Shown: piece by piece, positions 8,737 to 16,003 of the stretch | Layout of the letters: each line of letters begins with the position of its first letter | How positions within the stretch are numbered: the stretch's first letter is position 1 | Source of the DNA: Geoglobus sp. | GTDB lineage: Archaea; Halobacteriota; Archaeoglobi; Archaeoglobales; Archaeoglobaceae | Reading direction: 5' to 3' | Length of the DNA: 23,945 nucleotides | Assembly: GCA_027019885.1 (NCBI GenBank) | Contig: JALUWC010000530.1 | Location: 1 to 23,945 of the forward strand | Made by a program: the position numbers and the translations under genes | The notes under the pieces: model-generated | What the model saw: only the letters and a program-made list of their open reading frames with translations | What the model was told of the DNA's origin: nothing | Database searches by the model: none

Positions 8737-9162
8737 TTACACAAAACCATTCTCTCTAAGGGATTCAAATACGATATCGAGTATTTCTTCCATGATGGCA
8801 TCAACTGGTTTGGTTATCCTGGCCATGATAATGGCGTTGGTATCTGAAGGTGGAGCTACTGCCATTTCAACGCCATCAATTTTTGCATCCCTCACTTTTT
8901 TGGCGATTTCTCCCTTTGCAAGGGTTTTATCCCCCTTTTTAATCGTAAACCCCGAATGTTCTACATTTTCAAGCTCAACGAAAATAACCACTGTCTCATA
9001 GTTTTTGGCTTTTTCAAGGGTCTGGAATTTCACAGTTTTACCACCGAAAACAAATGTTGAATTGAGGACATCATTGCTCATCATCTCATCAAAACCATAA
9101 CACAGATTTAAAGCGATTTCGGTTTGTAAAACATGATCTTTGGGTGGTTCAACTTTTGTCAT
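8737..9162 (-). CDS. Conserved-looking hypothetical protein, 141 aa
   Basis: I do not recognise this family. The protein is soluble, mixed alpha/beta and acidic, with a valine/isoleucine-rich core (YETVVIFVELENVEHSGFTI), a lysine-rich middle and a C-terminal amphipathic helix (MEEILDIVFESLREN). It has no membrane segment, signal peptide or Cys motif. The frame stays open to 9252, but the extra N-terminal residues there would run into the divergent gene's start, so I take ATG 9162, which gives MTKVEPPKDHV. AT-rich TATA-like sequence lies on the minus strand at 9198-9222. It is divergently arranged with the next hypothetical, with about 90 bases shared between them, so the two may be co-regulated. 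Confidence 0.6.
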   Translation of the reverse strand: MTKVEPPKDHVLQTEIALNLCYGFDEMMSNDVLNSTFVFGGKTVKFQTLEKAKNYETVVIFVELENVEHSGFTIKKGDKTLAKGEIAKKVRDAKIDGVEMAVAPPSDTNAIIMARITKPVDAIMEEILDIVFESLRENGFV

Positions 9163-9210
9163 GAGAATGAGTATCGCATCCTCAGATAAGTTGAGGAGAA
9201 TATAGTAAAA

Positions 9211-9218
9211 ATTAAATA
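9211..9218 (+). promoter_or_regulatory. TATA box for the 9252 operon
   Basis: ATTAAATA lies 37 bases before ATG 9252, leaving a leader of about 10 bases that includes GGTGAT (9241-9246) as a ribosome binding site. Confidence 0.45.
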
Positions 9219-9251
9219 GTGGAGTGAGATGATTAATAATGGTGATTTGCA

Positions 9252-9686
9252 ATGGCTGAGAAAATGAGGGTAGTTCTGTGCGGATATGATCCGGTTCTCG
9301 TGAGAGGATATGTGAGGGCGAAGAATGAGGAAGCTCTATGGTTCTATCTGCCGAAGGAGCTTTACAAGGATTATGGTCTGAAACCGGGTGATAAGATTAA
9401 GGGGACTGTTGAAAAGATATATGCCGGATCCACTGGAGAGGTGATAGCAGAGCCAAATGAGGATTTTGAGTGGGACACTTCTCAGTTCACAGGAATGGCT
9501 GTTGTTGTGGATTTTGACTTCATTGCAAAATACAAGCTGACTGCCTGGCACTTCTTGGAACTCACTGTAAAGTCGGTTGTTCAGGATGGTGAGGAAAAGG
9601 AGGTTTATCCCGGAGAGATAAAAGAGAGAAAGATCTGGCCGGAGGATAAATTAAAGCTGAGATACACACTGGCGTACGTGGAATGA
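9252..9686 (+). CDS. Hypothetical protein, 144 aa, with an AbrB-like N-terminal stretch
   Basis: No family is recognised with confidence. Residues 29-55 (ALWFYLPKELYKDYGLKPGDKI) have the look of a swapped-hairpin AbrB strand, where PKEL and LKPGDKI are the usual turns. The rest is beta-rich and acidic, with no Cys and no membrane segment. Its stop overlaps the ATG of the following metallo-beta-lactamase-fold gene in an ATGA arrangement (9683-9686), so the two are translationally coupled and probably work together. A regulatory or scaffold role is only a guess. Confidence 0.6.
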   Translation: MAEKMRVVLCGYDPVLVRGYVRAKNEEALWFYLPKELYKDYGLKPGDKIKGTVEKIYAGSTGEVIAEPNEDFEWDTSQFTGMAVVVDFDFIAKYKLTAWHFLELTVKSVVQDGEEKEVYPGEIKERKIWPEDKLKLRYTLAYVE

Positions 9687-10753
9687 AGGACAGCACCTTA
9701 AATGAATGGACAAGACTGGGGGATAGTGGACTAACCTCCAATATTCTTTTTCTGGAGGGTTTTGAAAATTCTGCGAATATTTATGTTATTGAGAATGATG
9801 GCGAGATCTCTCTGATAGACACCGGAAATGACTATACAGCATTTCCAGAGCTTTTTGATTTGTATAGGGTTGATGAAATCTCATCAGTATTTTTAACTCA
9901 CTCTCACAACGATCACAGCCTCGGCTTGGTAGACCTCCTCCAGTATTACCCGGATTTTGGCAATCTTGATCTTTACGTGCATGAAGTTTTTCATGAACGG
10001 CTCAGAAAAGTGATTGAATACTTTGAAAGAGACATAAGGATAAAAACTCTGATAGGGGGGGAGAAAATAAGGCTTTCAGGAGAGAAGTTTGAAGTTTTGA
10101 AAACTCCCGGGCATACTATCGACAGCCTCTCTTTATATCATCCCGATGAGAGAATCCTTTTCTCCGGAGACGCGGTTTCAGCAAAACCTGTCATAGACGA
10201 CATGCTTGGTGGAAGGCTAATGGATTTTATAATCTCTCTTAGATATCTGCGGAAAAAAGACATTGAACTGATTCTACCTGGACATACCCTCCCCGGATTA
10301 AATAGAGACAATGAAATATTGGACAGAGCCTATCTGAAGGCTATTGGATTTCTTTCTTCAAACTATTCTCTTGTCGAATCTGCAAGAGAGGCAATCAGGC
10401 TTGATATGGTTGAGGAAGCTTTATTTGCACTTGAAAAACAAATTGAGTTTGAACCTGAAGATGAGGAGGCAAAAAAACTATACGCATCAATTCTTGCAGA
10501 TACCGGAGAAATAGAAAGGGCCATAACAATACTCAAAGAGGTTCCAGAATCTGCAGACACACTCTACCTCCTCGGTATGGTCTCGATAAAGTATGGCAGG
10601 CTTGAAGAAGCAGAGAAATATTTGAAGAAATCACTCAAGATGAAAGATGAGAAAATTACGAGGATGGCTTTAGTTTCAGTTCTGGTTGAGATGGGCAAAA
10701 TTGAAGAAGCTAAGAAATTTCCGGAGTTTAAAATCGTGGAAAGATTTAGTTGA
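9683..10753 (+). CDS. Metallo-beta-lactamase-fold hydrolase with C-terminal TPR-like repeats
   Basis: A 356-residue protein with a complete MBL metal site: THSHNDH gives H73, H75, D77 and H78; further ligands are H144 (TPGHT), D163 (FSGDAV) and H201 (LPGHT). These are the residues for a binuclear Zn or Fe centre as in glyoxalase II and related hydrolases. From about residue 232 the protein changes to helical repeats (AREAIRLDMVEEALFALEKQ, ADTGEIERAITILKE, KYGRLEEAEKYLKKSL) that fit TPR spacing. The substrate is unknown; the TPR part suggests a protein partner. Translation is coupled to the upstream 144-aa gene. The following operon starts with its own promoter 75 bases on, so a link to it is not required. 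Confidence 0.85.
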   Translation: MKDSTLNEWTRLGDSGLTSNILFLEGFENSANIYVIENDGEISLIDTGNDYTAFPELFDLYRVDEISSVFLTHSHNDHSLGLVDLLQYYPDFGNLDLYVHEVFHERLRKVIEYFERDIRIKTLIGGEKIRLSGEKFEVLKTPGHTIDSLSLYHPDERILFSGDAVSAKPVIDDMLGGRLMDFIISLRYLRKKDIELILPGHTLPGLNRDNEILDRAYLKAIGFLSSNYSLVESAREAIRLDMVEEALFALEKQIEFEPEDEEAKKLYASILADTGEIERAITILKEVPESADTLYLLGMVSIKYGRLEEAEKYLKKSLKMKDEKITRMALVSVLVEMGKIEEAKKFPEFKIVERFS

Positions 10754-10758
10754 TGTTT

Positions 10759-10801
10759 TTGTGATAAACCGTTAAGATTTTATATAGGGTATTGTCACAA
10801 T
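10759..10801 (+). promoter_or_regulatory. Promoter of the CoA-transferase operon with flanking dyads
   Basis: The TATA element TTTATATA (10778-10785) predicts transcription start near 10808. It is flanked by the inverted arms TTGTGA (10759-10764) and TCACAA (10795-10800). The right arm lies inside the perfect 11-base dyad ATTGTCACAAT (10791-10801), and a related ATTGTGTCAA follows at 10804-10813. A protein bound here would cover the TATA box and start site, so this is a plausible operator for an inducible catabolic operon. The regulator is not in the window. Confidence 0.5.
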
Positions 10802-10827
10802 CTATTGTGTCAAAAGGAGGAGATAGG

Positions 10828-12336
10828 ATGGGAGAAGAAAATGGTAAAACAATTGAAATAGACATAGATGACGTCAGTGACACTCTTTTGCCAAGGCCTT
10901 GGCCTGTATCAAAACCGAGGACGAGGGAGGAGCTTTATTCCCCGTGGGTCAAAGATCCGAGAGATCCAGAGGGTAAATACGGAGAATTTATTGAGGAAAA
11001 TATAAGCTGGGAAAAGGCTGAGGGAAAGCCATGGGCGCTTGATGGACTGCTTGTGCTGGACTGCACGATATGGGGAATGGCAGGAGCATTTGCCGGTTCA
11101 TATCTTGCAGAACTTGGAGCAACTGTTATAAAGATTGAGCCATTGGATGGAGACCCGCAGAGGCATCTCTATCCATTTGGCAGAGAAGAATATGCTTTTG
11201 AAGATATATATACCGGAGAAAAAGTAAGTCCGACATTCATTCATGAGCAAAGAAACAAGTATTCCATAACACTGAACCTTGAAACTGAGGAAGGTAGAGA
11301 GCTTTTTAAGAAGTTAGCTGCTCAGGCAGACATAGTTCTTGAAAACTATCCACCGGGCACATTTGATGAGTGGGGTATCGGTTACAGGCAGCTCAGCAAG
11401 ATAAATCCAAGGCTGATTTATGCTTGGTTTGGGCAGCTTGGACAGTGGGGAAGCATGAAGGACAGAACCTCAAAATATGGGCAGTGGATGCTCGATCCTG
11501 TAGGGATTTGCTGCAGTGAATTCGTGCATTCGACGGGATTTCCGGCAGATTTGCTTCCAAGAGAACAGGGAGGCAATCCAACCCGATCAGGTGAGTGGGT
11601 TGGAGATGTGGTAGCTGGGGTCCATGGAACCATAGCGATTCTTGCAGCCCTCTATTACAGGGAGAATGTCAGCAACAGGGGTCAGTTTATTGAGGCAACT
11701 GCTTCTGAATGTTATATGGATATCTGCGATTTCAACGTTGCCTGGTATGGTTTTGATGGTAGTATAAAGGCAAGAACCGGTGGCTGGGACCCGAATCTCA
11801 ATCAGTACGCATGGAATCCATGTAAGGATGGATACCTGATGATTGGTGGTCAGACTGACAGACTCTGGTACAGAATTCTGCAGGTTATCGCTCAGGAAGA
11901 TCCTGAGGGAGCGAGACTCATTGCTGAGGACCCATTCCTGAAGGAAATGGCGGCAAGAAACGCTCTGGAGGGGTTGATAAAGACATACACAATAACCGCA
12001 CAGTGGTTGGCTCATAACACAAGGGCAGAAGGGGAGAGAAAGATGGTTTCGAGAGAGGTTGCAGCAGCTCCAGTGCTGTTCATTGATGAGATAGCAGAAT
12101 ACGAGCACTTTGTTTACAGAAGGCATGTGACCGAGGTCTATGACGAGCATTATGGAAAGGTATTCGCTAGCAACTCCCCACTGGCTCACCAGCACAGAAC
12201 GCCAGCAAGGATAAAGTGGCTTGGAAGACCTCTCGGACTTGACAACGGAGAGATCTTTGCGAGATATCTGGGCATTGGGCCAATGGAGCTCAAAAAGCTC
12301 GCATTGGAAGGAGTTGTTAAATGGTATCGTGAGTGA
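10828..12336 (+). CDS. Family III CoA-transferase (CaiB/BaiF type), subunit 1
   Basis: Family III enzymes move CoA from an acyl-CoA to a free acid through an aspartyl-CoA thioester intermediate. Core blocks are all present: [75 protein letters not shown] and [16 protein letters not shown]. The catalytic Asp is D260 in [10 protein letters not shown]. At 502 residues it is about 100 longer than typical members, with an N-terminal extension of about 75 residues rich in Pro, Trp and acidic residues. I chose ATG 10828 because AAAGGAGG (10813-10820) stands 7 bases before it; an upstream in-frame TTG at 10792 lies before the predicted transcription start. The adjacent paralogue suggests a heteromer like BbsEF of anaerobic toluene degradation; the substrate is not known. 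Confidence 0.88.
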
Positions 12337-12346
12337 GGTGGTTAAG

Positions 12347-13750
12347 ATGGTTGAAAGCTGGAGTTTTAACCCTCCATTTGATAGGAACCCTGAGACAGGA
12401 GAGGACCTTGACAAGATTCCATTTGAGGAGTACTGCAGAAAGGTTTTCGACCCAAGCAAAACATTTGAAAAACCTGAGGCTTTGAAGGGCTGGAGACATG
12501 TGTCATCAACAATGTATATTTTAAGCCCCCATGTTGGTGCGACTCTCGCTGAATACGGAGCTGAGGTCATAAAGGTTGAGATGCCGAGGCTTGGCGATCC
12601 AATGAGACACACCTCTCCATTCAATGAAGCGTATCTCTGGCCTGAGACAGATCACAGACCTCTAACTGGAACGGGATTTGGTTTCCTTCATGCGAATGTT
12701 AACAAGTACTTTGTAACCCTCGATTATCATGCAGATGAGGCAAAGGAGCTTTACTATGATCTAATCAGAATCTCTGACAGCATGGCTGAATGCTACCGCC
12801 CAGGAACATTCTTTAGATGGGGAATTGGATATCCGCAGCTCAAAGAGGTAAATCCACGTTTGATCTACATCTGGCTGGGAGGATTCGGCAATTATGGCCC
12901 AAGAAGGTATGGAGGCAGCTATGACATACTGGGGCAGGCATGCGGTGGGCTTGCAGCGATTACAGGATGGCATGAAGACTTTGGAGGGCATCCTGCAAAG
13001 CACACCAACTGGATAATTGACTGGTATGCAGGTCTGACAGGTCTTATCGGAATTCTTGCAGCAGCTCATTACAGAAAGAAGACGGGAGAGGGTACGTTCA
13101 TCGACCTCTCACAGATAAGCTGCTCAACAAGAGCAACAGGCTACTCATTCCCGCTGTATGGCAGGTTTGGTGTGGTCAGGCAGAGATGGGGTAACTGGGA
13201 TACACTGCTCTCAGTCCATGGAATAATAATGGCTGGAAAGACAGACGATCCTGAGCATCCGAACCCGCAGATAAGTGTTGAAAGCAGGTACGTGATGGTG
13301 TCAGCCTTCCAGGATGAAGACTTCAAAGAGCTCTGCTATCTGATTGGCAGACCAGATCTGTGGGAGAAGTACAGTTCATTTAAGGAGAGAGTCAAGCCTG
13401 AAGCACAGATTGAGATTTACAGGGCTCTTGAGGAGTGGGCATCTGACAAGTCAAGGAGTGAGGTTGTTGAAGCTATAAACAACGCTGGCCTGATAGCAGT
13501 TCCAGTCATGTCTGCCAAGGACATATACGATGCCGAACATTTCTGGGAGAGAGGCACGATAAGATGGGTTGACGATCCATTGTTTGGGGAAGTTCTGACC
13601 CAGAACTGGCATGTAAAACTGAGCGAAACACCACCGAGAACAAAGTGGGTCTGGAGACCAATTGGCAGTGACAACATAAGGATTTACCACGAACTCATGG
13701 GGTATTCCATGAGCAAGCTGAAGGAGCTGTGGGAGAAGGGAGTCATCTAA
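12347..13750 (+). CDS. Family III CoA-transferase (CaiB/BaiF type), subunit 2
   Basis: A second CoA-transferase of 467 residues, clearly related to but strongly diverged from the preceding gene. It has [65 protein letters not shown] and [22 protein letters not shown]. The catalytic-type Asp is D225 in [12 protein letters not shown]. The C-terminus [14 protein letters not shown] is the usual family ending. An in-frame extension to 12221 overlaps the previous gene and lacks a ribosome binding site. I take ATG 12347, which has GAGGTG (12335-12340) at the right distance and starts 10 bases after the previous stop. Because both subunits keep the Asp, either could form the acyl intermediate. Residues 55-120 carry an insertion with [13 protein letters not shown] not seen in short members. 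Confidence 0.88.
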
Positions 13751-13764
13751 AGGAGGTGTGAGAG

Positions 13765-14238
13765 ATGGTCTATTACTGGGAATGTGAATGTGGATGGGTC
13801 AATTACCTTGATCCTTACTACTTCTGGAACTTCGAGGGCAAGGTGAAATGTGCAGGGTGTGATAGTGTAGCAAAATTCAGATTTCTCAATGGAGAACTGA
13901 TGGATGGTCCAACAAAGGTTGATGAGGCCCCAGATGTTCTTCCATTGTATGCAGACAACCCAAATGAGGGGTATATTTCGTACAAGGTTGGTGTTGAGGG
14001 TAAGACACGACCATTCTATGGACTGATGAGAGACCCAAGAACATACACCGGAGAGGCAAGAGTCAGGACAGAGAATGTGAGAGGCAGTTTCATAAGAAGC
14101 ATGCCAAACCAGCCAAAGAAAGCTGGATTTGCTGAAGTCAGGAGATTCGCATGGATTGACAGAAAGAAGAGCACTGATGTCTGGGGAGAGGACAAGTATC
14201 CAGGCAAGCCTGTTTATGGCCCTGATGTGGAGGAGTGA
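13765..14238 (+). CDS. Uncharacterised 157-aa protein with N-terminal four-Cys metal site
   Basis: I do not recognise this family. C7, C9, C29 and C32 (WECECGW and KCAGCDS) form a CxC-x19-CxxC site that could hold zinc or iron like a rubredoxin knuckle. The rest is rich in Tyr, Pro, Arg and Asp, with no membrane segment, and ends GKPVYGPDVEE. A strong ribosome binding site, AAGGAGGTG, overlaps the end of the previous gene (13750-13758) 6 bases before ATG 13765, so it is made with the CoA-transferases. It could be an accessory subunit, like the Zn-ribbon partner BbsA in bacterial bbs operons, but I see no DUF35-type sequence, so homology to BbsA is not claimed. Confidence 0.75.
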   Translation: MVYYWECECGWVNYLDPYYFWNFEGKVKCAGCDSVAKFRFLNGELMDGPTKVDEAPDVLPLYADNPNEGYISYKVGVEGKTRPFYGLMRDPRTYTGEARVRTENVRGSFIRSMPNQPKKAGFAEVRRFAWIDRKKSTDVWGEDKYPGKPVYGPDVEE

Positions 14239-14243
14239 TAACC

Positions 14244-14531
14244 ATGGAGAGTGAAGCAAAGGAAAAATTCAGCTTTCCAGAAGATGCAGGTCCGAGACCA
14301 CCAATTCTCACTCCAGAGCAGGCTGAGTTCATTAAGCAATTCCCGCACAAATGCAAGGACTGCAAATGGCTTAAACCAGTAATTCCGGGAACTGTGTTTC
14401 CACCTGCGGATCTTGTTGGATACTGCAAAATAATACACTGGCCATTCTACTGGTGTGTCAGCAAATACGTGGTTATCAGGAACTGCAAGTGGTTTGAAGA
14501 AAGAAGTGAGGATCAGTATCTACAACGCTAA
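14244..14531 (+). CDS. Small five-Cys protein resembling HiPIP-like small subunits of benzylsuccinate-synthase-type enzymes
   Basis: The 95-residue protein has Cys at 37, 40, 61, 71 and 81, in the settings HKCKDCKWLKP, GYCKI, YWCVSKYV and RNCKWFEE. Paired CxxC followed by spaced single Cys with aromatic neighbours is the pattern of small HiPIP-like [4Fe-4S] proteins such as the beta and gamma subunits of benzylsuccinate synthase. This is a resemblance by eye. I use ATG 14244, 10 bases after GGAGG (14229-14233); a GTG at 14235 overlaps the previous stop but has no usable site. It is the last gene of the CoA-transferase operon before T-rich DNA. No glycyl-radical large subunit is in the window, so the partner is either distant or the CoA-transferase itself. 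Confidence 0.75.
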   Translation: MESEAKEKFSFPEDAGPRPPILTPEQAEFIKQFPHKCKDCKWLKPVIPGTVFPPADLVGYCKIIHWPFYWCVSKYVVIRNCKWFEERSEDQYLQR

Positions 14532-14534
14532 ATT

Positions 14535-14560
14535 ATTAAATATTTTTCTTTCTTCTTTTT
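14535..14560 (+). promoter_or_regulatory. TATA box and T-rich stop signal between the operon and the 47-aa gene
   Basis: ATTAAATA (14535-14542) is centred about 26 bases before ATG 14564, the leaderless distance. The T-rich run at 14543-14560 could also end the CoA-transferase transcript. Confidence 0.5.
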
Positions 14561-14563
14561 GTT

Positions 14564-14707
14564 ATGGCTGAATATTTCTGTATTTATGACACGGTTGTCA
14601 GGTGTATTGTGGACCAGAGCAAAGAGGGATGGGAGAAAGCATGCAGAACCTGTCCGATCATGGATGGTTTAAAATCGGGCAAGGGCTGCACAAGTGTTGA
14701 ATTCTGA
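14564..14707 (+). CDS. 47-aa cysteine-rich protein
   Basis: A short frame starting at ATG 14564 encodes 47 residues with five Cys (6, 14, 27, 30, 42), including ACRTCPIMDG and GKGCTSVEF. The Cys density and CxxC are unlikely by chance and fit a metal or Fe-S binding miniprotein. A TATA element stands at the exact leaderless distance, and the next gene follows after 14 bases, so it heads its own small operon. Together with the 95-aa five-Cys protein just upstream it forms a pair reminiscent of the two small subunits of benzylsuccinate-synthase-like enzymes, but sequence similarity to those is not shown. Confidence 0.6.
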   Translation: MAEYFCIYDTVVRCIVDQSKEGWEKACRTCPIMDGLKSGKGCTSVEF

Positions 14708-14721
14708 GGGGGTGTCTGGTT

Positions 14722-14994
14722 GTGAATATTGATTTTGGCAAAACTGGTAGCATAGGGGATATCAAAGCTATGGTGGAGAGCTGGTATTATAAATACTCTG
14801 AAATAGGGGATGAGATGGCTGTGCAGATGTTTATGGATGATCTGGAATCAGTATATCCATACATAACGTTTCTATTTCAGAGAGGCGAGATAAGTTTTGA
14901 GGAATACAATGAATTTCAGGGGTTCTGTGAGGAGTTAATTGGAAGGCTGATGGAGAAGGCAGGTATTGAGGATATAGACAGATCTTTCCGCTGA
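14722..14994 (+). CDS. Small acidic hypothetical protein, 90 aa
   Basis: Unrecognised. The protein is helical, strongly acidic and rich in aromatic residues (MVESWYYKYSEIGDEMAVQMFMDDLESVYPYI), with one Cys and no membrane segment. The start is GTG 14722, preceded by GAGGGGGTG (14706-14713) at a good distance; this site overlaps the stop of the 47-aa gene, so the two are co-translated. A small all-helical partner protein is the most that can be said. Confidence 0.65.
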   Translation: MNIDFGKTGSIGDIKAMVESWYYKYSEIGDEMAVQMFMDDLESVYPYITFLFQRGEISFEEYNEFQGFCEELIGRLMEKAGIEDIDRSFR

Positions 14995-15010: not shown

Positions 15011-16003
15011 ATGAGACTCAGAGAGGTTTTTGTCAGCTTAGCTTTAGAAAACGGGATCGAGAAGATTTATGCTCCGGGCTTGAAAAAGCCAGATCCTCTT
15101 GCTTTCCTTGCTTCCCAGATAGCAAGCGGCAAAATGAGTCTTTACAGACCAAAGGAAGTTAGAAGATTATGTCTTACAATTAACGGGGGGTATGTCGAGG
15201 CAATTCCAGATGCGTATGCAGGTATCAATTCTGAAAAATCAATTTTAGATAAAAGTGATTTTGTGGAGTACTTGTCTCCATTCCCGTATATTGTGGTTGA
15301 CTGCAAACTGAGAGATATACATTCGGAGAAGGAAATTCTCAGCCTTGACACACAGATCAAAAAAACTTTATCGGTTGTGAGAAGGTTTATGTGGGATGAG
15401 AGACTTGTGATAACTGGTTTCAGATCTGAGGCATCTGCAATCCATTATCCGTCAACTGAAGATTTTCTAACTGAAATGAATTTTGAAAAAGTCATTCTCC
15501 TTGATCCCAATGGAAAGGATGTTTTTCAGGGCGAGAAGGCTGATTGCTATATCATTGGCGGGATTGTTGACAGATCAGGGGATAAAAAGGGCACAACAGA
15601 ACTGATTTACAGGAGGCTTGCTGAAAATGGGTTTGATGTTGAAAGGAAAAGAATACTTCTCAGGAATGATGTTGTTGGGGTACCTGACAGAATAAACCAC
15701 ATAGCAGAGATAGTTTTGAAGTGTGTTATCGATGGTCTGAATGTTGAGAGAGCAATTTACGATGTGCAGAACAGAAAGATAGCCAGATGGAGATTGAGAA
15801 AGGAGATTGCAAAAAATGCAAAAAGGATAAAGGTTTCTGACAGGAAATTCAGGGTCATCGGTAAATCATTTTTTGATGAGGTCAGAAACTGGCTTAAAGT
15901 TAATGAGGACGACTTCTATAAGTGTGCGAGAGACATGGGTGTGATGGTTTTGGGTGAGACCCTCACCTCTGCGAAAGTTCTTAAAATACGTGGAGATTTA
16001 TAG
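15011..16003 (+). CDS. trm10: tRNA (purine-9 N1)-methyltransferase, archaeal Trm10 family
   Basis: A SPOUT-class, SAM-dependent methyltransferase modifying position 9 of tRNA. At 330 residues it matches archaeal Trm10 proteins. The catalytic core shows FPYIVVDCKLRDIHSEKE, the central RLVITGFRSEAS, then CYIIGGIVDRSGDKKGTTE (about residues 179-197), where D187 of GGIVD is in the place of the proposed general base, and KRILLRNDVVGVPDRINHIAEIV, the knot region. The N-terminal 90 residues and the basic segment VQNRKIARWRLRKEIAK suit tRNA binding. Whether it makes m1G, m1A or both cannot be told. ATG 15011 begins 16 bases after the previous stop without a clear ribosome binding site; thioredoxin follows after 6 bases. 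Confidence 0.85.
   Translation: MRLREVFVSLALENGIEKIYAPGLKKPDPLAFLASQIASGKMSLYRPKEVRRLCLTINGGYVEAIPDAYAGINSEKSILDKSDFVEYLSPFPYIVVDCKLRDIHSEKEILSLDTQIKKTLSVVRRFMWDERLVITGFRSEASAIHYPSTEDFLTEMNFEKVILLDPNGKDVFQGEKADCYIIGGIVDRSGDKKGTTELIYRRLAENGFDVERKRILLRNDVVGVPDRINHIAEIVLKCVIDGLNVERAIYDVQNRKIARWRLRKEIAKNAKRIKVSDRKFRVIGKSFFDEVRNWLKVNEDDFYKCARDMGVMVLGETLTSAKVLKIRGDL

Follow-up and report, generated by a model that had tools for sequence, protein, structure and literature searches.

A tight operon of four genes, CoAT1-CoAT2-P3-P4 (positions 10828-14531), was found in the window, a 23,945-nucleotide (nt) stretch of Geoglobus sp. DNA (contig JALUWC010000530.1). It encodes two family III coenzyme A (CoA)-transferase subunits followed by two small cysteine-rich proteins. 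Among 57 Archaeoglobales genomes, 14 carry this cluster, always in the same gene order, and a second module of four genes (c4, c2, c1 and c3) usually accompanies it. Judged from sequence comparison, the cluster may encode a CoA-transferase system of family III that is heteromeric, has dedicated small metal-type subunits and acts on an acid, a reading to which we give about an even chance. A metal-containing CoA-transferase complex is putative but plausible.

Distribution and order of the four genes

The P3 profile matched 14 of the 57 Archaeoglobales genomes, and when P3 profiles were run against a wider phylum sample of 392 genomes, the same 14 were recovered together with one marginal match. 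Orthologues of CoAT1 (at least 58% identity, with the next best paralogue at 40% or below) were present in exactly these 14 genomes. Neither CoAT1 orthologues nor P3 were found in the remaining 43, and among all 57 there was no CoAT1 orthologue without P3 and no P3 away from CoAT1-CoAT2. A search of 60 relatives recovered P3 and P4 in the same 10 genomes, and tblastn placed P4 beside P3 in the other four cluster genomes. No P4 away from P3 was detected in these 60 relatives (38 of them Archaeoglobales) or in the four further genomes, a search that left out 15 genomes of Archaeoglobales. An earlier note on this DNA had described five open reading frames (ORFs) here, all of which exist as given, and had named the occurrence of the small proteins apart from the CoA-transferases in all relatives as evidence against its reading; no such occurrence was seen for P3 in the 57 genomes or for P4 in the genomes searched. 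Its view of the four genes as tightly coupled was borne out, and they form a conserved unit: all 14 cluster genomes show CoAT1, CoAT2, P3 and P4 in this order, which in G066 was read across two contigs; in G026 the contig stops within P4.

In nine other genomes among the relatives searched, P3 (59–91% identical) and P4 (70–95% identical) were conserved and adjacent, which excludes chance. In the genus labelled g10, the identity falls to 39–46% for P3 and to 49–50% for P4. The cluster is patchy within genera, with five of seven genomes carrying it in g1, two of six in g3 and two of ten in g10, so the CoAT-P3-P4 set appears to have been gained or lost as a unit. It is present in the cultured Ferroglobus placidus (G016) and probably in Geoglobus ahangari, to which the cluster carrier G006 presumably belongs; G001 and G002, each a single contig and congeneric with G006, are without it. 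Three cluster-bearing genomes of the genus of the window are named Geoglobus (G003, G004 and G005). Within Geoglobus, much of the flanking sequence is syntenic as well, as would be expected if unrelated genes formed a chance neighbourhood held by general synteny. Outside Geoglobus, however, the flanks change and the set stays, the second module is rearranged yet remains close, and CoAT1 was never seen without P3 in the 57 genomes, so that a chance neighbourhood is scarcely credible.

The two CoA-transferase subunits

PF02515 was the sole Pfam family above the cut-off in either subunit (E 1.2e-74 for CoAT1 and 1.1e-75 for CoAT2). The domain spans most of both proteins and is preceded in CoAT1 by about 70 residues. 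The catalytic column holds Asp260 in CoAT1 and Asp225 in CoAT2. The catalytic Asp that the earlier note had assigned to both subunits is thus present in the window; across orthologues this stood for CoAT2 (14 of 14) and only in part for CoAT1 (12 of 14).

The pair was compared with 14 other Archaeoglobales pairs, comprising 12 chosen loci, one of which is a single ORF, and two pairs from the genome of the window; the identities were 29–43%. The partner-type subunits of these pairs have Trp, Ser or Tyr in place of Asp in 14 of 14 cases, and the catalytic-type subunits keep Asp in 13 of 13. In the tree, CoAT1 grouped with the Asp-less partner-type subunits (support 0.97), and the Asp retained in CoAT1 is, on this alignment, unusual for the partner type. 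The highest identity of CoAT2, up to 43%, is with a catalytic subunit; in the tree its stem lies beside the CoAT1/partner group, in a placement that is not firm. Archaeoglobales hold several CoA-transferase pairs (L102-L113, L026 and L027), with an Asp-less subunit in all 14 sampled.

Like CoAT1-CoAT2, the two other CoA-transferase pairs in the genome of the window (contigs C545 and C555) are adjacent genes. Unlike the cluster, they are without P3 or P4, none being found on their contigs of 5.6 and 5.3 kb. The genome assembly (2.77 Mb in 574 contigs) is 96% complete and 8.75% contaminated, and given this contamination and its large size, both contigs may come from another organism. The congeners of this genome measure 1.6–1.9 Mb.

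The curated family III equivalogs of NCBIfam were not reached by either subunit, the best scores being 151 bits for CoAT1 and 162.5 bits for CoAT2 against cut-offs of 413–750 bits. The formyl-CoA, CoA:oxalate, carnitine, mesaconate and glutarate CoA-transferases belong to the same Pfam family, and the scores fell far under the NCBIfam cut-offs. For CoAT1 and CoAT2, respectively, the formyl-CoA/oxalate models gave 122 and 160 against 504 bits (TIGR03253) and 99 and 92 against 522 bits (NF008511), the L-carnitine CoA-transferase model (NF002914) gave 83 and 96 against 413 bits, and the succinyl-CoA:mesaconate CoA-transferase model (NF041294) gave 151 and 162 against 700 bits. The kinship with carnitine or oxalate enzymes that the earlier note had held out as a contrary outcome was not observed. 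The PDB sequences of SUGCT, formyl-CoA transferase and one chain of the succinyl-CoA:benzylsuccinate CoA-transferase BbsEF also fell outside the CoAT1 and CoAT2 groups in the tree.

P3 and P4 could also belong to an active complex in which the same fold serves a different acyl-CoA reaction, such as isomerisation, racemisation or intramolecular CoA transfer. The family includes 2-methylfumaryl-CoA isomerase and methylacyl-CoA racemase, both of which were lower-ranked matches of CoAT1/CoAT2, and the two subunits are long and diverged. Against this, CoAT2 scored 24 bits with the isomerase model (cut-off 725), and the Asp of intermolecular transfer is invariant in CoAT2; a reaction of this kind is distinctly unlikely.

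Among the closest described systems is BbsEF (PDB 9fn0), which also consists of two different family III subunits. Its chain B (9fn0_B) was matched by CoAT2 at E 1.1e-27, third in rank, and by CoAT1 at 4.2e-19. However, the BbsEF subunits have 409–410 residues compared with 502 and 467 for CoAT1 and CoAT2, and 9fn0_B sits with the other PDB enzymes. Chain 9fn0_A was absent from the tree, and the Asp of 9fn0_B lay one column off in the alignment, so its state was left unscored. No bbs-type beta-oxidation genes were found in the conserved set with Pfam, and small cysteine-rich partners are unmentioned for BbsEF in the available part of its description (PMC10818641).

The small cysteine-rich proteins

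No match to Pfam or NCBIfam at a meaningful score was obtained for P3, P4 or P5, the last being the ORF that follows P4. The conserved core of P3 consists of three Cys, two of them invariant (C29 and C32) and one nearly so (C9). The CxC that the earlier note had read as a motif did not hold up; it is HxC in relatives and CxxC in the deepest ones. In a zinc ribbon, two ligand pairs on two knuckles would be expected; the putative ligand pattern of P3 proper is [C/H]x(1,2)C...CxxC, matched by Pfam ribbons below threshold only and with Asp at one ligand in some distant relatives. The exchange of Cys for His would suit the binding of zinc. In the AlphaFold2 model of P3, residues 1–85 were predicted with confidence, and the conserved C-terminal tail had low confidence when modelled alone. 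A tail that is conserved yet poorly modelled alone would suit a subunit whose folding depends on a partner.

P4 has five Cys (C37, C40, C61, C71 and C81) and the stretch HWPFYWC invariant in 14 of 14 sequences. None of the 14 matched any Pfam family at E values up to 10, and there was no PDB match.

P5 keeps five Cys in its nine sequences and was found in nine of the 14 genomes with the cluster; G026, with its truncated contig, is among the five where it was not found. A T-rich stretch (14532-14563) separates it from P4. Shorter P5 paralogues with four Cys occur at unrelated loci in three cluster genomes, and G004 and G020 each gave a further, marginal match at E ~0.008. Because of this partial presence and these paralogues, P5 is probably not a core part of the set. 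Of the three cysteine-rich proteins that had been counted with the operon, P3 and P4 therefore stand, and P5 is optional. The P5-related miniproteins (about 36–42 residues, four Cys) lie at L099:8238, L100:3124 and L101:7654, where no CoA-transferase of the cluster was matched and a helicase-like or transporter-like neighbour was noted by eye.

BssB and BssC are small cysteine-rich subunits of glycyl-radical enzymes (benzylsuccinate synthase). P4 resembles them in its size and in having several Cys, including a CxxC. Unlike them, P4 has no Pfam match, and Pfam presumably holds BssB/BssC families. With a BssC-like P4 and the match of CoAT2 to 9fn0_B, the operon could be the activation step of an anaerobic fumarate-addition pathway for aromatics or alkanes, detached from the rest, and the earlier note had suggested such a detached part. 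This suggestion found no backing. No pyruvate formate-lyase (PFL)-like glycyl-radical enzyme (PF02901) was matched in the 96%-complete genome of the window, and such enzymes, present in 16 of the 57 genomes, showed no co-distribution with the cluster (6 of 14 with it compared with 10 of 43 without it). No thiolase, dehydrogenase or hydratase family was matched in any member of the conserved set. Together with the separate placement of 9fn0_B, these results make a detached activation step very unlikely. Benzoate-degradation genes are reported to be missing from the G. ahangari genome, while the benzoyl-CoA pathway is reported for G. acetivorans (PMC4600277). The cluster appears to track neither a benzoate/benzoyl-CoA nor a PFL-type pathway.

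Second module, promoter region and proposed system

The coordinates of the features in the window and of the stretches at other loci are given in the table.

Table. Features of the CoA-transferase cluster, its promoter region and its neighbours
Feature	Position	Strand	Remarks
c4	8737..9084	-	~115 aa; start inferred from relatives
c2	9252..9686	+	144 aa; two AbrB-like motifs by eye
c1	9683..10753	+	356 aa; metallo-beta-lactamase fold and TPR repeats; 4-nt overlap with c2
TATA-like element of CoAT operon	10778..10786	+	read from sequence
Palindrome TTGTCACAAT-CT-ATTGTGTCAA, operator-like	10792..10813	+	22 bp, near-perfect; 0.01 expected by chance in window
CoAT1, family III CoA-transferase subunit	10828..12336	+	502 aa; ATG preceded by AGGAGG
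CoAT2, family III CoA-transferase subunit	12347..13750	+	467 aa; with Asp225
P3, zinc-ribbon-like protein	13765..14238	+	157 aa; sub-threshold Pfam zinc-ribbon matches of relatives
P4, five-Cys protein	14244..14531	+	95 aa; C37, C40, C61, C71, C81 invariant
P5, five-Cys protein, optional	14564..14707	+	47 aa
c3	14722..14994	+	90 aa
Thioesterase/ligase stretches	L018:15163-17272, L020:4917-5291, L023:6714-7091, L055:14678-16363

The gaps between CoAT1, CoAT2, P3, P4 and P5 are 10, 14, 5 and 32 nt, and CoAT2 has an alternative GTG start at 12338 that would give 470 amino acids (aa). The conserved unit reaches past 10828-14707 to include c4, c2 and c1 (8737-10753) as well as c3 (14722-14994); the earlier note had the core operon right and missed this second module. 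c1 matched PF00753 (E 1.6e-22) and TPR families, and c2 and c4 matched no Pfam family above threshold. c2 is strongly conserved, nearly as much as the CoA-transferases, and was found in 12 of the 57 genomes, all of them among the 14 with the cluster. The two cluster genomes without c2 are fragmented: the contig of G014 ends in CoAT1, and G066 has only 1.1 kb upstream of CoAT1. c1 adjoins c2 in 12 of 12 genomes, and c4 lies near c2-c1 in 11 of these 12, not being found near L025. c3 is present in 11 of the 13 cluster genomes having sequence past P4 and adjoins c2 in L082 and L083.

The module stays within a few kb of the CoAT operon in four arrangements. In the window, as in most other genomes, it is upstream on the same strand; it is upstream and divergent in JdFR-27 (L050/L081), and downstream and convergent in G078 (L082). 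In SJ3.Bin61 (L055/L083) it is downstream on the same strand, forming a single eight-gene run of CoAT1, CoAT2, P3, P4, c3, c2, c1 and c4. Because the neighbourhood outlives rearrangement, a functional link is indicated rather than plain synteny.

In G018 (with a 4-nt overlap), G016 and G026, three genomes that span two genera, c4 has a 4HBT-type thioesterase gene next to it. G018 and G073 also encode, a few kb beyond, AMP-binding acyl-CoA ligases that are related to each other (48% identical); with such genes near the cluster, a role in CoA-ester metabolism fits. Downstream of the cluster in Geoglobus and JdFR-37, but not in Ferroglobus (G016), lies a Trm10-like tRNA methyltransferase gene (15011-16003; NF041140 at 222 bits, with the cut-off at 550). 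CoAT1 and CoAT2 are 93% identical to their JdFR-37 counterparts compared with 48% for the neighbouring Trm10.

In the promoter region, the palindrome overlaps the expected transcript start and is kept only partly in the closest relatives. A TATA-like stretch similar to that of the window precedes several CoAT1 orthologues. Another arm related to it is found at 10759-10767.

An operator-like palindrome at the CoAT promoter, AbrB-like motifs in c2, TPR repeats in c1, and P3 and P4 without a known enzyme fold would all suit a regulatory or assembly system accompanying an ordinary CoA-transferase, with P3 and P4 as assembly or metal-sensing factors rather than subunits. The position of P3 and P4 directly after the CoA-transferase pair in 14 of 14 genomes, and the two other pairs of the genome of the window without them on their contigs, speak against this; it is somewhat unlikely.

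To our knowledge, the family III CoA-transferases described so far are simple interlocked dimers that have no metal subunits. In the heteromeric system proposed here, CoAT2 would carry out ping-pong CoA transfer via an aspartyl-CoA intermediate on Asp225, and CoAT1 would be its interlocked partner, possibly with a second active site at the retained Asp. The N-terminal ribbon of P3 would hold zinc, and the conserved tail would clamp the protein onto the CoA-transferase. P4 would provide a second metal or Fe-S (iron-sulphur) site for assembly, for stability or for shaping the acid-binding pocket. In the second module, c2 may act in regulation and c1 may be a hydrolase-type partner.

Several results weigh against this system. 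The two CoAT1 orthologues without the catalytic Asp, both from g9 genomes (L024 and L025), have Ser. P3 gave no significant structural match, and in its distant relatives P0037 and P0045, Asp replaces one putative zinc ligand. The structure prediction for P4 was not usable (mean predicted local distance difference test score, 48.8). Near the cluster, most genomes looked at have no thioesterase gene and most have no ligase gene, and the window has neither. Furthermore, a distant match of P3, P0011, led to 39 clusters (P0011 included) of zinc-ribbon-like proteins mostly of about 130 aa without Pfam domains; with profile E values of 3e-18 to 4e-25, the homology of this family extends along most of P3, and these P3-like proteins, placed in no genome, may work elsewhere without these CoA-transferases.

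A bolder version, which we consider unlikely, is a new class of CoA-transferase machine with two potentially active interlocked subunits, obligate zinc and Fe-S miniproteins for catalysis or redox gating, a hydrolase and regulator module, and an acid that is not known to be activated in this manner. If it were true, P3-like proteins would point to a broader family of these machines that has gone unrecognised. Direct testing is possible through the cluster in cultured F. placidus and, probably, G. ahangari. Five of the eight co-inherited proteins (P3, P4, c2, c3 and c4) have no Pfam match above threshold, and the co-inherited set suggests that hyperthermophilic archaea carry out a metabolic step not yet described.

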